NCBI RefSeq assembly: GCF_004152935.1
Contig: NZ_SETE01000010.1
Location: 1-64,000 of the forward strand
Direction: 5' to 3'
Length of the DNA: 64,000 bases
Source of the DNA: Brumimicrobium glaciale
GTDB lineage: Bacteria > Bacteroidota > Bacteroidia > Flavobacteriales_D > Crocinitomicaceae
Part shown: positions 12,794-19,335 of the stretch, piece after piece
Layout: each line of letters begins with the position of its first letter
Position numbering within the stretch: position 1 is the first letter of the stretch
The notes under the pieces: model-generated
Databases searched by the model: none
Seen by the model: only the letters and a program-made list of their open reading frames with translations
What the model was told of the DNA's origin: nothing
Program-made: the position numbers and the translations under genes

Positions 12794-14506
12794 CTACTGA
12801 ACCACAATCCTTGAACTCACCCAAACACCATCAAAATTCATCATTACAATGTATGTTCCAGTTGATAATTTTGATGTGTTCAATTCATATAAATTGTCCT
12901 TTATTTTATTTGAATCAACATTCATTTCTCTTCCTGTAATGGCCAAAACCTTAATCGATTGAATATTGTTTTCTGCGTGAATAGTTAATTTTTCATTTGC
13001 TGGATTTGGGAACAATTGAATTAGTTGTTCTCCTTTAATTTCAGATGCTAAACCTGAAACTCCTCCAACTTCTGGATTAATTATCAACTCACAACCATTG
13101 GCGTCAGTTATTGTTACTTCGTAAGTTCCAATACATAAATCTACAGCTGCAGGACTAGTGTTCGCAGGAAAGTCAGTCCATGTAAATGTATATGGCCCTA
13201 CTCCACCACCAACGATAATCTGTATATCTCCTAGACAATCTCCAGAATTATCAGGGGTAATAAATGTGTTAAATAGTATTGCATCTGGCTCTGTGATGTT
13301 GATACAATAGTCATCTACTTCTCCTAAATCATCCGTTACTGTAACGCAATATGTTCCAACACTTAAATTTGTTGCTGTTTGTGAAGTTTGATTATTCGCA
13401 TTTGCATCCCAAAGAAAAGTGTAAGGTGCTTGACCTAAATTTGGTGTAATTGTAGCTTCTCCGTCATTTCCATTATTACACGAAATGTTGTTTTGACTAG
13501 GAACCAAAGCCAAGCCATTACTTGTTGGGTAATTGATGTCTACTTTTAATTCAACCGGTAAATGATCCGACATGTAATATAAAGCGCGAACAACATTTGA
13601 AGGATATATGCTATTTGAACCTGAAATTAAACTAGAGTTGTAATGGTTTCCGTCGTTTCCAACCGCTCTATAACTTCCTGTTTGATATTGAACATTATCA
13701 TTGTTATTTAATACGTTTTGAGAAACTAGAATTTGATCAAATCGATCATCCATTCCTCCTTTTGAACCACAATCAAAATTTGCACTTGTTCTTGTCGATT
13801 GTGTATGAATTGCAGCGTAAGAAGATGAATTATTCCAATTTCCTGGCGTATTGATTGGATCTTTCAATGCAAATGAACCTGAAGTCATATTCTGATATCC
13901 ATCGTCGTTTGAAGAATAAACGTTCATATCACCACATACAAATACATTTCTATCGGTAGGACGATTGGCAATATAATTCATTAAAATTTGTGTTTGGGAA
14001 TCTCTTTGTGCTTCACTTGAACTTGAATTTCCAGCTTTTAAATGCATCATATATACTTCAATAAAAGTAGTGTCGAAATAGACATTCAAATTCGGATCTT
14101 TTAAATACAAAATATAATGATCAATTTCACGCGGCGAACTTACTACCACATGCTGACTTTTCAATACAAGTTTATCTGAATTATAGAACATAGCATTGTG
14201 CAAATATCCGCTTCCATTGAATGTTGCCGCAATATAATTGGTATTTCCATTCCCGTTTAATGCATCATTCAAAACAGCATCAACTCCCGCTTGAGTTTGA
14301 ACTTCACAAGCCACAAAAATATCTGGTTGAAGATAATTAGTGATCTTCTTTAAGGTATCCGCTCTATTGGGAACAATGGTATTTGAACCACAATCATCCC
14401 TCCCATCTGGATAGTTTAAAAGATTGTAAGAAACGATAGACAAAGTTTCATCTTGTGCAGAAACCACAGACGATAGTGCAATAAAAAGGATAAATAAATA
14501 TTTCAT
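12794..14506 (-). CDS. T9SS-secreted endonuclease/phosphatase-family protein
   Basis: With the ATG at 14504-14506 the product is 570 aa and begins with signal peptide MKYLFILFIALSSVVSA. Residues about 20-330 form an endonuclease/exonuclease/phosphatase domain: VSYNLLNYPD, the metal-binding Glu in ACEVQT, CGDMNVY, and a final MSDHLPVEL with the catalytic His. Two SprB-like repeats follow (NISCNNGNDGEATI...YTFLW...GTYCVTVTD and a second degenerate one). The C-terminus is a type A T9SS sorting domain (LFPNPANEKLTI ... STGTYIVMM). The protein is therefore expected to be exported through type IX secretion and act as an extracellular nuclease or phosphodiesterase. Substrate inferred only from the domain. 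Confidence 0.9.
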   Translation of the reverse strand: MKYLFILFIALSSVVSAQDETLSIVSYNLLNYPDGRDDCGSNTIVPNRADTLKKITNYLQPDIFVACEVQTQAGVDAVLNDALNGNGNTNYIAATFNGSGYLHNAMFYNSDKLVLKSQHVVVSSPREIDHYILYLKDPNLNVYFDTTFIEVYMMHLKAGNSSSSEAQRDSQTQILMNYIANRPTDRNVFVCGDMNVYSSNDDGYQNMTSGSFALKDPINTPGNWNNSSSYAAIHTQSTRTSANFDCGSKGGMDDRFDQILVSQNVLNNNDNVQYQTGSYRAVGNDGNHYNSSLISGSNSIYPSNVVRALYYMSDHLPVELKVDINYPTSNGLALVPSQNNISCNNGNDGEATITPNLGQAPYTFLWDANANNQTSQTATNLSVGTYCVTVTDDLGEVDDYCINITEPDAILFNTFITPDNSGDCLGDIQIIVGGGVGPYTFTWTDFPANTSPAAVDLCIGTYEVTITDANGCELIINPEVGGVSGLASEIKGEQLIQLFPNPANEKLTIHAENNIQSIKVLAITGREMNVDSNKIKDNLYELNTSKLSTGTYIVMMNFDGVWVSSRIVVQ

Positions 14507-14753: not shown

Positions 14754-15101
14754 TTAACCAAAACTAACATAGAAATTACTAAGTAAATATACTAGCACAC
14801 TAATTGACACATCCAAAAACACATAAATAATTAAAATGAGATCAATTAATTCATTTGTATTAAAATATTTACGTGTTAAATGTCTTTTGAAACAATAGTA
14901 ATAAAGGAATATTCCTGAAAGTGAAAATAAAGCAGGTATAATATTGATTATGTTTTCGAGACTCCAAAAGTTATCATGTTGTTGTAATCTTAAATCTTTA
15001 AGAAATTCAATACCATAAAACATATCATAGAAACCTATTGACCGCAATAAAATGGAGAATGAGAAGAGTATTATAATTTTGATTTTAAGTTTTAAATTCA
15101 T
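14754..15101 (-). CDS. Small four-helix membrane protein
   Basis: The 115-aa product is hydrophobic, with likely membrane segments near residues 7-25, 50-68, and two more around 85-110, and no recognised family motif. It starts MNLKLKIKIIILFSFSILLR. A truncated copy starting VNLKLKIITLFLFSVS lies at 16092-16205, so this is the intact member of a duplicated pair. It sits left of a lipocalin remnant and a divergent barrel gene. Function unknown. Confidence 0.65.
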   Translation of the reverse strand: MNLKLKIKIIILFSFSILLRSIGFYDMFYGIEFLKDLRLQQHDNFWSLENIINIIPALFSLSGIFLYYYCFKRHLTRKYFNTNELIDLILIIYVFLDVSISVLVYLLSNFYVSFG

Positions 15102-15115
15102 TTTGTTGCATTTAT

Positions 15116-15231
15116 TTATTTTTCTAAAAGGAAATTAAATCTCAAAACTTCATACCATTTTCCAAGGTTATTTTCAGCGTCGAATTTTTCTACTTTTTGT
15201 ACTTTCTAGATACACAACTACATAATACCAT
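15116..15231 (-). pseudogene. Lipocalin remnant (left copy)
   Basis: On the minus strand a lipoprotein-like start MVLCSCVSRK (ATG 15229-15231) shifts frame into VQKVEKFDAENNLGKWYEVL and stops at 15116-15118 after about 38 residues. This matches the N-terminus of the intact lipocalin at 16247-16762 (KKFDADKYLGKWYEVARFDF). The remnant has a frameshift and has lost about three quarters of the gene. Position between membrane-protein and barrel genes mirrors the right-hand copy. Confidence 0.8.
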
Positions 15232-15416
15232 TATTATTAGCACAATTCTATTTTCCTCATTTTAAAATATCTTTTGTTGATAATGGAGTATAATTTAGAA
15301 TTCTTCATCTTCATTTTACAAGTTTCTCAATAAAACTTCGATATTTACTTAGCTAGAAGTTAAATTATCCAAAAAATGTTGTTACTATTGTTTTGTTAAA
15401 AAAACAAAAAAACACT
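15232..15416. other. Spacer upstream of the left barrel gene
   Basis: This AT-rich stretch separates the lipocalin remnant from the barrel gene and probably holds that gene's promoter. No exact TAnnTTTG box was found; TACTATTG near 15384 is the nearest match. Nothing else recognised. Confidence 0.3.
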
Positions 15417-16034
15417 ATGAAAAAATTGAAACTAACACTCATTGGATTAATCTCAATGTTAACAATTAGCACAGCTAATGCGCAAGCACTAGAAGAAGGG
15501 GATATAATTATCGATGCCTATTACGGCTTTCCTAACTTGTATAAAACTGTATTTAGAGCTGCTTATGCTGGCTCTGGTCAAGAAATTAATTTAGAAGTAG
15601 GTGGAATTGGTCCATTAGGAGTCAGAGGTGAATATATGATTGCAGATCAGTTTGGTGTTGGACTTGATATCGGTTTCTCAAACACTAAAATAAGTTATGA
15701 GGAAAAAAGTTACGCTAATGAATCGAATAATTATGAATATAATTTCGATACTCGAAAGATTGGTGTTATGGCAACTTTTAATTACCATTTCGTGAAGAAC
15801 TCTGACAATTTTGATGCTTATGTAATGGCTGGTGCGGGTTATGGAAATAGAACCTTTAATTACACGTCTACAGAGCCTGGATATGAAATTGCAACATTTA
15901 GTTCACCTTTTCCAATAGCAGCTAGAATTGGTGTTGGAATGAGATATTTCTTCAGCGAAAACTTTGGTGCAAGTCTAGCAATGGGCTTTGGACAAGGAGG
16001 TTTATTGAATGCCGGAATTTCTCTGAAACTTTAA
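15417..16034 (+). CDS. Outer-membrane barrel protein (left paralogue)
   Basis: The ATG at 15417 gives 205 aa starting MKKLKLTLIGLISMLTIS with signal peptide cut after TANA. The mature sequence is a small OmpA/OmpW-like barrel: strand-like alternation, GIGPLGVRGEYMIADQFGVGLDIGF, and a terminal GFGQGGLLNAGISLKL. It is clearly paralogous to the product of 17058-17666 (shared IAPIGIRTEYMI-like segment, FNYHFLK-like segment and end). An in-frame ATG eight codons upstream would add a polar stretch before the signal and is unlikely. Exact role unknown; outer-membrane location inferred. Confidence 0.82.
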   Translation: MKKLKLTLIGLISMLTISTANAQALEEGDIIIDAYYGFPNLYKTVFRAAYAGSGQEINLEVGGIGPLGVRGEYMIADQFGVGLDIGFSNTKISYEEKSYANESNNYEYNFDTRKIGVMATFNYHFVKNSDNFDAYVMAGAGYGNRTFNYTSTEPGYEIATFSSPFPIAARIGVGMRYFFSENFGASLAMGFGQGGLLNAGISLKL

Positions 16035-16055
16035 AATATTTATGTTTTATTAAAG

Positions 16056-16086
16056 AATGGCTACACATAATTGTGTAGCCATTTTT
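16056..16086 (+). terminator. Terminator of the left barrel gene
   Basis: AATGGCTACAC (16056-16066) pairs with GTGTAGCCATT (16073-16083) around ATAATT, continuing into a T-run. It lies 22 bases after the stop of the barrel gene. Confidence 0.85.
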
Positions 16087-16091
16087 CGTTT

Positions 16092-16205
16092 TTAACTCTT
16101 TGGAATTTTAAACAACTCAATACCGTAAACCATATCTACAGACCAATCAACCTTAATAGATACAGAAAATAAGAATAGTGTAATGATTTTGAGTTTTAAA
16201 TTCAC
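16092..16205 (-). pseudogene. Truncated copy of the small membrane protein
   Basis: A GTG-initiated frame (16203-16205) reads VNLKLKIITLFLFSVSIKVD and then MVYGIELFKIPKS before stopping at 16092-16094, 37 residues in all. It aligns with the first 40 residues of the 115-aa protein at 14754-15101 (MNLKLKIKIIILFSFS ... MFYGIEFLKD). The remaining two thirds are missing. It is the right-hand counterpart in a duplicated three-gene block. Confidence 0.75.
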
Positions 16206-16246
16206 TCTGTTATCATAATTCAACATTCATAATTCAGCATTCCTAT

Positions 16247-16762
16247 TTACCTATCGTGTTCAACCCAAATCAAATTCTCAGTTGCGTAACCAATTTCTTT
16301 TGCTTTTTGGATATATTTCTCTTTAATTTCCTGCGGAATAATAGGTGTTCTTGACAAAATCCATAAATATTTCAAACTTTCACCAGCCACCAATGCATAT
16401 TTATAATCATCATCTAGTTCTACAACATTATATCCTGAATAAAATGGACCGAAAAATGAAACTTTTAACATTGCTGTTTGAGTATCTTTGACAAACTTAG
16501 CCTTCCCTTCTGCTGATGTCCATTCGTTTTTCACATAATTATATCCTTTGTTCACGACTTTGATTGTTCCATTATCGTTTTTCGAATATTCTGCTGTGGT
16601 ATTGTTTAAATTCTTCTCAAATCGAAAATCAAAACGTGCTACTTCATACCATTTTCCGAGGTATTTGTCTGCATCGAATTTTTTAACTGCTTCCGCCTTT
16701 TTAGGTATTGTTGCACATCCAAACAAACCAAATAGCAACAATGCCAAGCCAACTTTTTTCAT
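16247..16762 (-). CDS. blc: Blc-type bacterial lipocalin lipoprotein
   Basis: The 171-aa product has a lipoprotein signal ending in LFGLFGC (Cys16) and then the lipocalin fold signature LGKWYEVARF with the conserved Gly-x-Trp at residues 36-38. The later segments NVVELDDDYKYALVAGESLKYLWILSRTP and the C-terminal helix complete the Blc pattern. Bacterial lipocalins of this type are outer-membrane-anchored binders of fatty acids or lysophospholipids linked to envelope stress. Length is normal. A decayed copy lies at 15116-15231. Confidence 0.93.
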   Translation of the reverse strand: MKKVGLALLLFGLFGCATIPKKAEAVKKFDADKYLGKWYEVARFDFRFEKNLNNTTAEYSKNDNGTIKVVNKGYNYVKNEWTSAEGKAKFVKDTQTAMLKVSFFGPFYSGYNVVELDDDYKYALVAGESLKYLWILSRTPIIPQEIKEKYIQKAKEIGYATENLIWVEHDR

Positions 16763-16786
16763 GATTATTTATTTTTGTATTCTCCT

Positions 16787-16941
16787 AAAATTACCTTTTC
16801 TTATGACTTAACCAATACGAATAGCGTTAAAATTGACTAGTGACAGAACTTATAATTGTCTCAATTACTCCGTTTTATAAATCAATATCAAGACGTTAAC
16901 AATTGAATATCAATAATTTTCCATTAAAATTACCTTTTCTT
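16787..16941. repeat. 16-bp direct repeat, 139 bp apart
   Basis: AAAATTACCTTTTCTT occurs exactly at 16787-16802 and again at 16926-16941, both followed by TATGACTTAAC/GTCATATTTTAAC-like text. The pair lies in the divergent promoter region between the lipocalin and the right barrel gene, so it may be a repeated regulator site or a small duplication. Confidence 0.45.
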
Positions 16942-17057
16942 GTCATATTTTAACTTTAGAACATCTTTATTTTACGTTATTTTGAATTTACAATTATTAA
17001 CTAAATTTTAACCGAATCATATTGAGGTTCAAGTTTTAAATCTATTAAAAAAAAGCT

Positions 17058-17666
17058 ATGAAAAAATTGAAAATTATTACCGCTGGTTTACTTTCCATGT
17101 TTGCCATTTTAAGCTTAAATTCATTTAACGCCCAAGTATTAACAAAAGGCGATTTTTTGTTTGACGCCTATATTGGTTCACCTAAAACTTATGAGCTGAC
17201 TAATAGAAATGATGTTAAAAGATTTGAACGAGAAGATGGTTATTTAATTTACAGTGGTATTGCTCCTATTGGAATAAGAACTGAATACATGATAAGCAAT
17301 AGAATAGGACTTGGTTTTGATGCAAGTTACACCGATTTGAAAATTTCATCTCTTAGCTATGGAAATGCAAAATTTCATGAATATAAATCAATTGCAACAA
17401 TGCTAACATTCAATTATCATTTCCTTAAAAGTTCTGAAAAATTTGATTTATATGGAACACTGGGTGTGGGTGCAGCCCTTCGCTCATCAACAGAAATTTC
17501 GTATATACCAAAATATCAAAGAGAAGACTATGTTTATGACTATCCTTTAGCTTTAAAAATTGGATTAGGTGCAAGATATTTTATCACTGACAAAATTGGA
17601 GTAAATCTATCTGTTGGTTATGGTGAAGGTGGATTTGTAAATGGAGGAATATCAATTAAGTTTTAA
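17058..17666 (+). CDS. Outer-membrane barrel protein (right paralogue)
   Basis: This 202-aa protein begins MKKLKIITAGLLSMFAILSL with a signal peptide likely cut before QVLTKGDF. It shares with the left paralogue the KGDFLFDAYIG-type start of the mature chain, the IAPIGIRTEYMISNRIGLG segment, FNYHFLK, and the end VGYGEGGFVNGGISIKF. The final aromatic residue and strand-like pattern fit an outer-membrane barrel. It is divergent from the lipocalin gene, as the left paralogue is from the lipocalin remnant. Confidence 0.82.
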   Translation: MKKLKIITAGLLSMFAILSLNSFNAQVLTKGDFLFDAYIGSPKTYELTNRNDVKRFEREDGYLIYSGIAPIGIRTEYMISNRIGLGFDASYTDLKISSLSYGNAKFHEYKSIATMLTFNYHFLKSSEKFDLYGTLGVGAALRSSTEISYIPKYQREDYVYDYPLALKIGLGARYFITDKIGVNLSVGYGEGGFVNGGISIKF

Positions 17667-18060: not shown

Positions 18061-19335
18061 GTGAAGTTAAAAAGTAGAAGAAAACTCGTTAATTACTTAA
18101 ACATACTTGATCAACCTATCAGGTTTAATCCGTTTCTATTTAGTCGCACATTTTTTCTTTGGGCATTATTGGGATTAATGGGTGGGCTGATAGCTGGAAT
18201 TTATTGGATCATTCTTGAGATGGTTATTCATTTTTTAGGTCAATTTGAAGGGTGGTTAGTTATACCAACAATGGCAATTTCTGGATTTTTAGCCGGAATT
18301 ATCATTCACTTTATTGGAGATCCTGGAGAGATATCTTTAATCGTAAACAACATTAGATTCAATAAAGGCAAACTCGATCCTAAGCGGAATCCATCAATGA
18401 TTTTGTCATCCCTCTTATGTGTTGGCTCCGGAGGAAGTTTAGGTCCAGAAGCTCCACTAGTTCAAGTAACAGGCTCAACAGGAACTTGGCTTGGTAAAGT
18501 ATTCCGTTTAAAAGGCGAAGAATTACGCTCCATGAGTATCGCTGGAATGGCAGCCGGATTCACCGCATTATTTGGTGCTCCTCTTGGTGGAAGTTTATTC
18601 GCTTTGGAAATTCTTCATCACAAACATGTGGTTCAATATTATCAAGCCATTACTCCTGCTCTAGTTTCAAGCTTATTTAGTTATATCGTTTTCGCTTTAA
18701 TCATTAGTTTAGGATTAGGTGCACTTTGGCAAGTTCCTATCTATGAATACGAAGGAATGTTCGATTTCGGATTAGCAGTTTTATATGGAATTATAGCCGC
18801 TGCGGTTGGTTGGTTTTTCATTTATTTAACCAAAACATTCAAGAAAATATTCGAATGGAAAACTATGCCTGTTTACATAAAAATGATGGTAGGAGGAATA
18901 ATTCTTGGATTTATCTCCTATGCTTTTCCAATTACACGTTATTTTAGCCACTACGAAGTCAATGAATTACTCACAACTCCATATACGTTGTGGATGTTAT
19001 TGGCCATTTTATTCTTTAAAATAGCTGCAATTTCTATTACTGTAACTTCCGGTTGGAGAGGTGGATTCATCATTCCGCTTTTCTTTGTTGGAGCGACAAT
19101 TGGATTAATTATCGCTGAAATCTTCCCAGACATCAATGCTTCATTAGCTATAATTTGCAGTATGGCGGCAATCAATTCAACGGTAACGAGAACACCAATG
19201 AGTACAACTATTCTTGTAGCAACATTAACAGGCTTTACTTATTTAATTCCGATACTGTTCGCAAGTTTGACTGGATATTTCTTAGCACCTAAATTACCGT
19301 TTATTGCTGCGCAGTTGAGAGAGGAGAAGGAATAA
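18061..19335 (+). CDS. ClC family chloride channel/transporter
   Basis: The 424-aa inner-membrane protein starts at a GTG (18061). It carries the ClC signature GSGGSLGPEAPLVQ (122-135); Glu130 aligns with the external gating glutamate, here in a GPEAP context instead of the common GREGP. The conserved SGWRGGFIIPLFFVGATIG and NSTVTRTPMSTTILV segments of the ion pathway follow. There is no C-terminal CBS pair, so it is the short form. ClC proteins are Cl- channels or Cl-/H+ exchangers; the gating glutamate is compatible with exchange. Monocistronic. Confidence 0.93.
   Translation: MKLKSRRKLVNYLNILDQPIRFNPFLFSRTFFLWALLGLMGGLIAGIYWIILEMVIHFLGQFEGWLVIPTMAISGFLAGIIIHFIGDPGEISLIVNNIRFNKGKLDPKRNPSMILSSLLCVGSGGSLGPEAPLVQVTGSTGTWLGKVFRLKGEELRSMSIAGMAAGFTALFGAPLGGSLFALEILHHKHVVQYYQAITPALVSSLFSYIVFALIISLGLGALWQVPIYEYEGMFDFGLAVLYGIIAAAVGWFFIYLTKTFKKIFEWKTMPVYIKMMVGGIILGFISYAFPITRYFSHYEVNELLTTPYTLWMLLAILFFKIAAISITVTSGWRGGFIIPLFFVGATIGLIIAEIFPDINASLAIICSMAAINSTVTRTPMSTTILVATLTGFTYLIPILFASLTGYFLAPKLPFIAAQLREEKE

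Follow-up and report, generated by a model that had tools for sequence, protein, structure and literature searches.

The window analysed here is a stretch of 64,000 nucleotides from Brumimicrobium glaciale (genome of 4.27 Mb), in which the genes of a small membrane protein (minus strand), a lipocalin (minus strand) and a barrel protein (plus strand) are found twice in this order, side by side, between positions 14754 and 17666. The left copy contains an intact membrane gene (14754-15101, 115 amino acids), a lipocalin remnant (15104-15205) and an intact barrel gene called B1 (15417-16034, 205 amino acids). The right copy contains a membrane-gene remnant (16092-16226), an intact lipocalin gene (16247-16762, 171 amino acids) and a second intact barrel gene called B2 (17058-17666, 202 amino acids). 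All the remnants lie on the strand of the corresponding gene. The doubled trio with its two remnants and its four intact genes had been described in a first-pass annotation of this DNA and is confirmed. The arrangement is probably the result of a tandem duplication of the three-gene stretch, followed by differential loss, in an ancestor of the Brumimicrobium species of the window. The stretch membrane - lipocalin - barrel, located between a nuclease-like gene and a ClC-type gene, would have been copied in tandem, a single event producing the copies of all three genes. Both barrels would have been retained and would then have drifted far apart, the left lipocalin would have lost two thirds of its length at the 3' end, and only the 5' third of the right membrane gene would be present. 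The outcome would be the working order membrane - B1 - lipocalin - B2, which is the order of the working genes at present.

Two collinear copies and their remnants

A repeat search detected three pairs of direct repeats: 15111-15194 / 16605-16688 (71%), 15051-15107 / 16155-16211 (70%) and 15406-15467 / 17047-17108 (73%). The scores of local DNA alignments were compared, each, with 500 dinucleotide shuffles. The membrane remnant scored 97.0, for a best shuffle of 53; the corresponding values are 88.5 and 54 for the lipocalin remnant and 203.5 and 78.5 for the comparison of B1 with B2, and in none of the three tests was any of the 500 shuffles as high. For the control on real DNA, each gene was compared with 628 overlapping 400-base stretches of the window, on both strands and with the gene itself excluded. 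The top place was the remnant for the membrane gene (106.5, the next place being at 16801-17200 with 85.5) as well as for the lipocalin (100.0, next place 71.0). The alignment of the two halves, proposed in the first-pass annotation as a check of the repeated order, has sustained it, since remnants and barrels match beyond all shuffles. The order and the strand shared by the two remnants also speak against chance matches.

Concerning the left remnant, codons 22-55 of the lipocalin match at 15104-15205 in a tblastn search with 59% identity (4.9e-9), and the same place was recovered with the lipocalin protein in a search of the window genome (3.7e-7). The remnant consists of 34 alignable codons in a single frame that contains a TAA, preceded by a TAG. 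The last 116 lipocalin codons are missing and the membrane gene adjoins directly. A lipocalin reduced to 38 codons with a frameshift had been described previously; the reduction stands, the alignable part amounts to 34 codons and, since single-base gaps are found only in the DNA alignment extended towards the old start, a frameshift can apply at most to the 5' part. The degraded 5' end of the lipocalin and the intergenic region before B1 occupy positions 15206-15416.

In the right copy, codons 5-35 of the membrane gene match in tblastn with 52% identity (4.8e-5), and a two-row profile recovered this remnant in the window genome (E-value of 7.6e-4). The first 35 codons minus two are kept, and the 37-codon open frame reported earlier is found, starting from a GTG and aligning over 33 codons. 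The homology begins at about position 16090, a few bases past a terminator-like hairpin located after B1 (16053-16086, plus strand, 15-pair stem with a T run). Two terminator-like sites were found in the region by the terminator scan, for a shuffle mean of 1.1.

The locus in related genomes

The relatives cited below are B. oceani (G003, loci L027 and L116), B. salinarum (G004), an uncultured Brumimicrobium (G009) and the genome G002 (locus L115). The double block of the window is flanked on the left by the gene of a secreted nuclease-like protein (12794-14506, minus strand), present at the locus in four relatives, and on the right by the ClC-type channel gene (18061-19335, plus strand), which three relatives have at the locus. 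The B. oceani genome has, between these flanks, one intact block composed of the membrane gene (70% identity with the window gene), the lipocalin and a counterpart of B2 (70%), that is, the single intact block which the first-pass annotation had proposed to look for in relatives. Three features by which a tandem duplication is recognised are found here: two adjacent collinear copies of a multi-gene segment, the loss of different genes from each copy with recognisable remnants (the membrane remnant representing either a loss or a breakpoint) and a single-copy block at the same locus in a relative. In G002, the same flanks hold the lipocalin and a counterpart of B1 (69%), and on the far side of the ClC-type gene there is a broken barrel.

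The region between the lipocalin and the barrel gives a similar picture. The G002 intergenic region scores 69.5 with the left copy (15213-15416; 0/300 shuffles as good) and 56.5 with the right copy (16/300). Conversely, the B. oceani region scores 97.5 with the divergent intergenic region of the right copy (16763-17057; 0/300) and 49.0 with the left copy (59/300). The two relatives therefore resemble different halves of the double locus, and from this likeness we infer that the duplication did not take place after the window species, B. oceani and G002 had separated. Among 171 intergenic pairs, the best match is that of the nuclease-side stretch between the window and G002 (78.0; best of 60 shuffles 48.5), which supports that the locus is the same. 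The window species groups with B. oceani and G002 (100/99), the inner branching of the group being open, next to G004 and G009, and the single-gene trees agree with this grouping.

The lipocalin remnant was also compared with the intact lipocalins. It scores 106.5 with G002, 103.5 with B. oceani, 89.0 with the window's own gene, 75.5 with G009 and 74.0 with G004, and when bases are counted along the 34 codons the five genes lie close together (71, 70, 67, 63 and 65 of 102 bases for G002, B. oceani, the window, G009 and G004, respectively). With the window lipocalin, the matches are 53/68 at codon positions 1 and 2 and 14/34 at position 3 (p 0.00036); with the G002 lipocalin they are 51/68 and 20/34 (p 0.11). 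This codon pattern would fit a spell as a working protein, change in the intact gene contributing too. Codon positions are near saturation and give only weak leanings for the dating.

The membrane gene was not found in the lipocalin-bearing genomes G002, G004 and G009, the G009 contig ending just past the lipocalin. No trace of it was detected between nuclease and lipocalin, either in the 660-base gap of G002 (261/300 and 126/300 shuffles as good) or in the gap of G004 (262/300). In the G002 gap (L115:10902-11562), a palindrome some 50 bases long and accompanied by a T run was spotted by eye; it is perhaps a small mobile element or a terminator element.

The two barrels and the competing explanations

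B1 and B2 share 40-42% identity and both exceed the cut-off of the Pfam family OMP_b-brl (28.7 bits), with 40 bits (6.2e-10) and 35 bits (2e-8), respectively. An AlphaFold model of B1, obtained from a five-row alignment (pLDDT 82, pTM 0.71), has a barrel fold with eight strands of at least 8 residues, and its top Foldseek matches are OprF, OmpA and related small barrels (E-values from 4e-6 to 2e-5). The eight longer strands predicted in this model are shared with the transmembrane domain of OprF and OmpA and with OmpW; in contrast, the identity is only 12-16%, the TM-scores by query length are 0.41-0.51 and the root mean square deviation is above 6 for the ten best matches, and no function follows. 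B1 is the common form in the family, with 48-63% identity in 14 further loci from five other genera, these loci having been picked for their likeness to B2. B2 is a far-diverged form, found among 200 family genomes only in the window and in B. oceani; the broken G002 barrel possibly belongs to the same kind. The nonsynonymous (dN) and synonymous (dS) differences are 0.186 and 1.58 between B1 and its G002 counterpart, and 0.182 and 1.09 between B2 and its B. oceani counterpart, the synonymous sites being near saturation in both cases; both barrels look to be under constraint between species. Adjacent pairs of barrels of this family were observed in G028, G015, G019, G075, G097 and G078 and in the genus members G009 and G008, so it is not unusual for the barrel to be copied in tandem.

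Several results weigh against a simple tandem duplication with loss. In a first barrel tree of 33 rows (29 different; the G023 row with a stop skipped), B2 nests with the B1 sequences of this clade (97/97). A wider tree of 35 rows was obtained by adding 14 relatives and dropping 12 earlier rows (four duplicates and eight distant, long or other-locus sequences) and the broken G002 barrel. In this tree the placement of B2 is open, a clade of B2 with B1 being neither shown nor rejected (approximately unbiased test, p 0.43). As the favourable result of the 33-row tree was lost with wider sampling, B2 is not shown to be a within-clade copy of B1, and a fast change of B2 after the copy is accordingly possible and unproved. 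The 35-row tree rejects a clade that joins B1, but not B2, to three named rows (G035, G017, G004; p 0.0005), a result that tells little on B2 because this clade also excludes other B1-type rows. In a third tree of 27 rows (seven of the 33 rows dropped, the broken G002 barrel added), the five trio barrels as one clade have a p of 0.41 and the two B1 sequences as one clade a p of 0.28, and the broken G002 barrel groups with B2 (99/99), a grouping that may come from long-branch attraction. The only barrel of this kind in G004 is also beyond the ClC-type gene (order lipocalin - ClC-type gene - barrel). The positions of these two barrels are not explained by a single simple duplication of the block. 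The lipocalin gene tree has no resolved branching, and the membrane gene occurs in too few genomes to show by a tree whether all three genes share one duplication. Between the two copies, the intergenic regions separating lipocalin and barrel are only weakly similar (63.5, 4/500 shuffles as good; with slightly different limits, 65.5 for a best of 63.5 in 60 shuffles), and the stretches after B1 and B2 have no similarity (14.0 for a shuffle mean of 17.7, 484/500 as good). Homology after the two barrels had been considered as a test of the end of the duplicated segment; at such a divergence its lack is uninformative. The left flank and the stretch after B1 do not resemble each other either (18.0 for a shuffle mean of 19.5, 349/500 as good). 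Finally, the single block of B. oceani may have arisen by the collapse of a duplicate, because recombination between the two membrane-gene stretches would yield its arrangement, and this block is therefore no proof of the ancestral state.

The chances are about even that the right membrane remnant was incomplete from the outset, the duplicated segment having reached from within the membrane gene to a point after the barrel. This origin is compatible with the tandem duplication and would reduce the history to one duplication and one deletion, the decay of the left lipocalin, instead of complementary decay. The remnant contains the 5' part only and its homology starts past the B1 hairpin, where the junction would lie; one event fewer is needed, and the remnant-specific changes show no clear excess at third codon positions (12/25, for 16/61 at positions 1 and 2; Fisher p 0.075). 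On the other hand, the matches with the window membrane gene (48/66 at positions 1 and 2, 17/33 at position 3; p 0.045) lean to a spell under protein constraint, to which change in the intact gene adds, and the same appearance would result from a later deletion reaching as far as the terminator. Since a segment edge inside the membrane gene would give a truncated look from birth, complementary decay is not required: of this claim of the first-pass annotation, the common ancestry and the tandem arrangement are retained, and the later decay of both genes is not, as the right remnant may be a breakpoint. We regard as rather unlikely that a B2-type block from a diverged relative recombined in beside a resident B1-type block. 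Such a merger would agree with the identity of 40-42% between B1 and B2, yet near 70% with their G002 and B. oceani counterparts, and with the different barrels that these two genomes carry beside the lipocalin; the branching of the three species is open and the barrel tree permits it. However, with a synonymous difference of 0.634, B1 and B2 fall between the two between-species values (0.659 and 0.574), all being near saturation, and no donor was found among the 200 family genomes. After its B. oceani counterpart, the best matches of B2 are the B1 of G002 (139.4 bits), the B1 of the window (136.0) and, close behind, a gene of another genus, G140 (135.4).

An origin of the remnants by chance similarity in AT-rich DNA, or from insertions of unrelated sequence, is hardly credible in view of the shuffle and real-DNA controls, the protein-level matches and the shared order and strand. 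The DNA is indeed AT-rich, and the membrane-gene alignment at 16801-17200 (85.5) scores above 1000/1000 shuffles. This alignment was tried and rejected as a third membrane-gene remnant: it is gap-rich and enters the B2 coding sequence, and because its intergenic part alone is equalled by 43/1000 shuffles we consider it, without proof, as a composition effect. A duplication retained because the three genes form a functional unit of the envelope, in which lipocalin and barrel cooperate, appears very improbable. Divergent lipocalin-barrel pairs are present in the window, G002 and B. oceani, and both proteins come from envelope families; against this, B1 of the window is intact next to a lost lipocalin and the ClC-type gene separates lipocalin and barrel in G004. 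Moreover, in 80 named lipocalin loci with flanks of up to 6 kb, the lipocalin was re-found in all 80 and a barrel of this family in only two, both from Brumimicrobium, with the membrane gene in only one. No such barrel was present in the fetched DNA of the other 78, several loci being short and one Brumimicrobium contig ending about 300 bases upstream of the gene. In this sample, the lipocalin-barrel neighbourhood is local to the genus, and the cooperation at the outer membrane suggested in the first-pass annotation finds little backing in it. The former unity of the trio, also suggested there, holds in the physical sense: the three genes form a physical unit in two species, without being a conserved functional unit, the membrane gene being present in 2/10 genomes of the genus.

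Our preferred explanation remains a tandem duplication followed by differential loss. More tentatively, the locus could be a late-stage fossil of reciprocal loss, with both losses still readable and different halves in sister species, B2 having taken a new role with very fast divergence after the copy and B1 having been conserved. The reason for which both barrels were retained is something that we infer and do not observe.

Known systems, gene families and surroundings

The locus shares with the model of tandem duplication and random loss (TDRL) an adjacent segmental copy, the loss of different genes from each copy and a new gene order. It differs by its location on a bacterial chromosome, by the retention of both barrels and by a loss that may be a breakpoint. 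The literature found under the TDRL wording, judged by titles, is composed of mitochondrial or method papers. In bacteria, the SNAP hypothesis (Brandis and Hughes 2020, PMC7055797) also proposes a duplication that selection retains during niche adaptation, the inactivation of different genes in each copy and a new order. In the parts of this article that we draw on, natural isolates are reported to show the first two steps only; the locus described here resembles the late steps, with three genes, none known as essential, contrary to the tens to hundreds of genes, essential ones included, considered there. Segmental duplication with asymmetrical loss has also been proposed for order changes of operon clusters in bacteria (Brandis 2021, PMC8046335). 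The cause of gene-order change is the same as here; in that work, as far as considered here, the events were inferred from gene order and trees, whereas here the remnants are still readable. Changes of the TDRL or SNAP type are difficult to demonstrate, since nothing remains of the copies that are lost. The kind of event is thus already known and the genes are ordinary; the useful part is the presence of remnants of both copies together with relatives resembling different halves, from which the order of events could be recovered with more genomes of the genus. The locus would thus record, on a small scale and still legibly, one way in which the order of genes can change in a bacterium.

The window lipocalin contains a full-length Lipocalin_2 domain (147.1 bits for a cut-off of 24, 4.5e-43, profile positions 2-145 of 146) and matches the structure of Escherichia coli Blc (2aco) at 1.4e-48 over residues 17-169 of 171. 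Despite this near full-length match to Blc structures, its score for the NCBIfam Blc subfamily is 222, under the cut-off of 267. At its N-terminus, a lipobox-like stretch precedes a cysteine. The lipocalin is present in 5/10 genomes of the genus. Another decayed lipocalin, with three stops, was observed in a different genus (G035:C90:3958-4263). The membrane protein has only a weak Pfam match, DUF4345, below the cut-off (E-value of 0.019). Its gene is clear in 3/200 family genomes, with three further weak matches, and a distant relative was noticed in another genus (G163, L155:359-697), in a locus of 2,185 bases where the lipocalin was not found. No literature joining Brumimicrobium and lipocalin was found, and the papers on bacterial lipocalins and Bacteroidetes, judged by titles, include none on gene duplication.

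A scan for sigma-70 promoters gave 23 sites for 23.4 expected by chance, and a Bacteroidota-type promoter motif, TAnnTTTG, was dropped after five scattered matches. On the right side of the locus, the ClC-type gene of B. oceani (L116:10781-12051) is possibly disrupted or misassembled near its start, because its match is split there in two pieces with one TAG and one TAA. On the left side, the nuclease-like protein of the window (12794-14506) carries an Exo_endo_phos domain, SprB repeats and a secretion-system C-terminal sorting domain.

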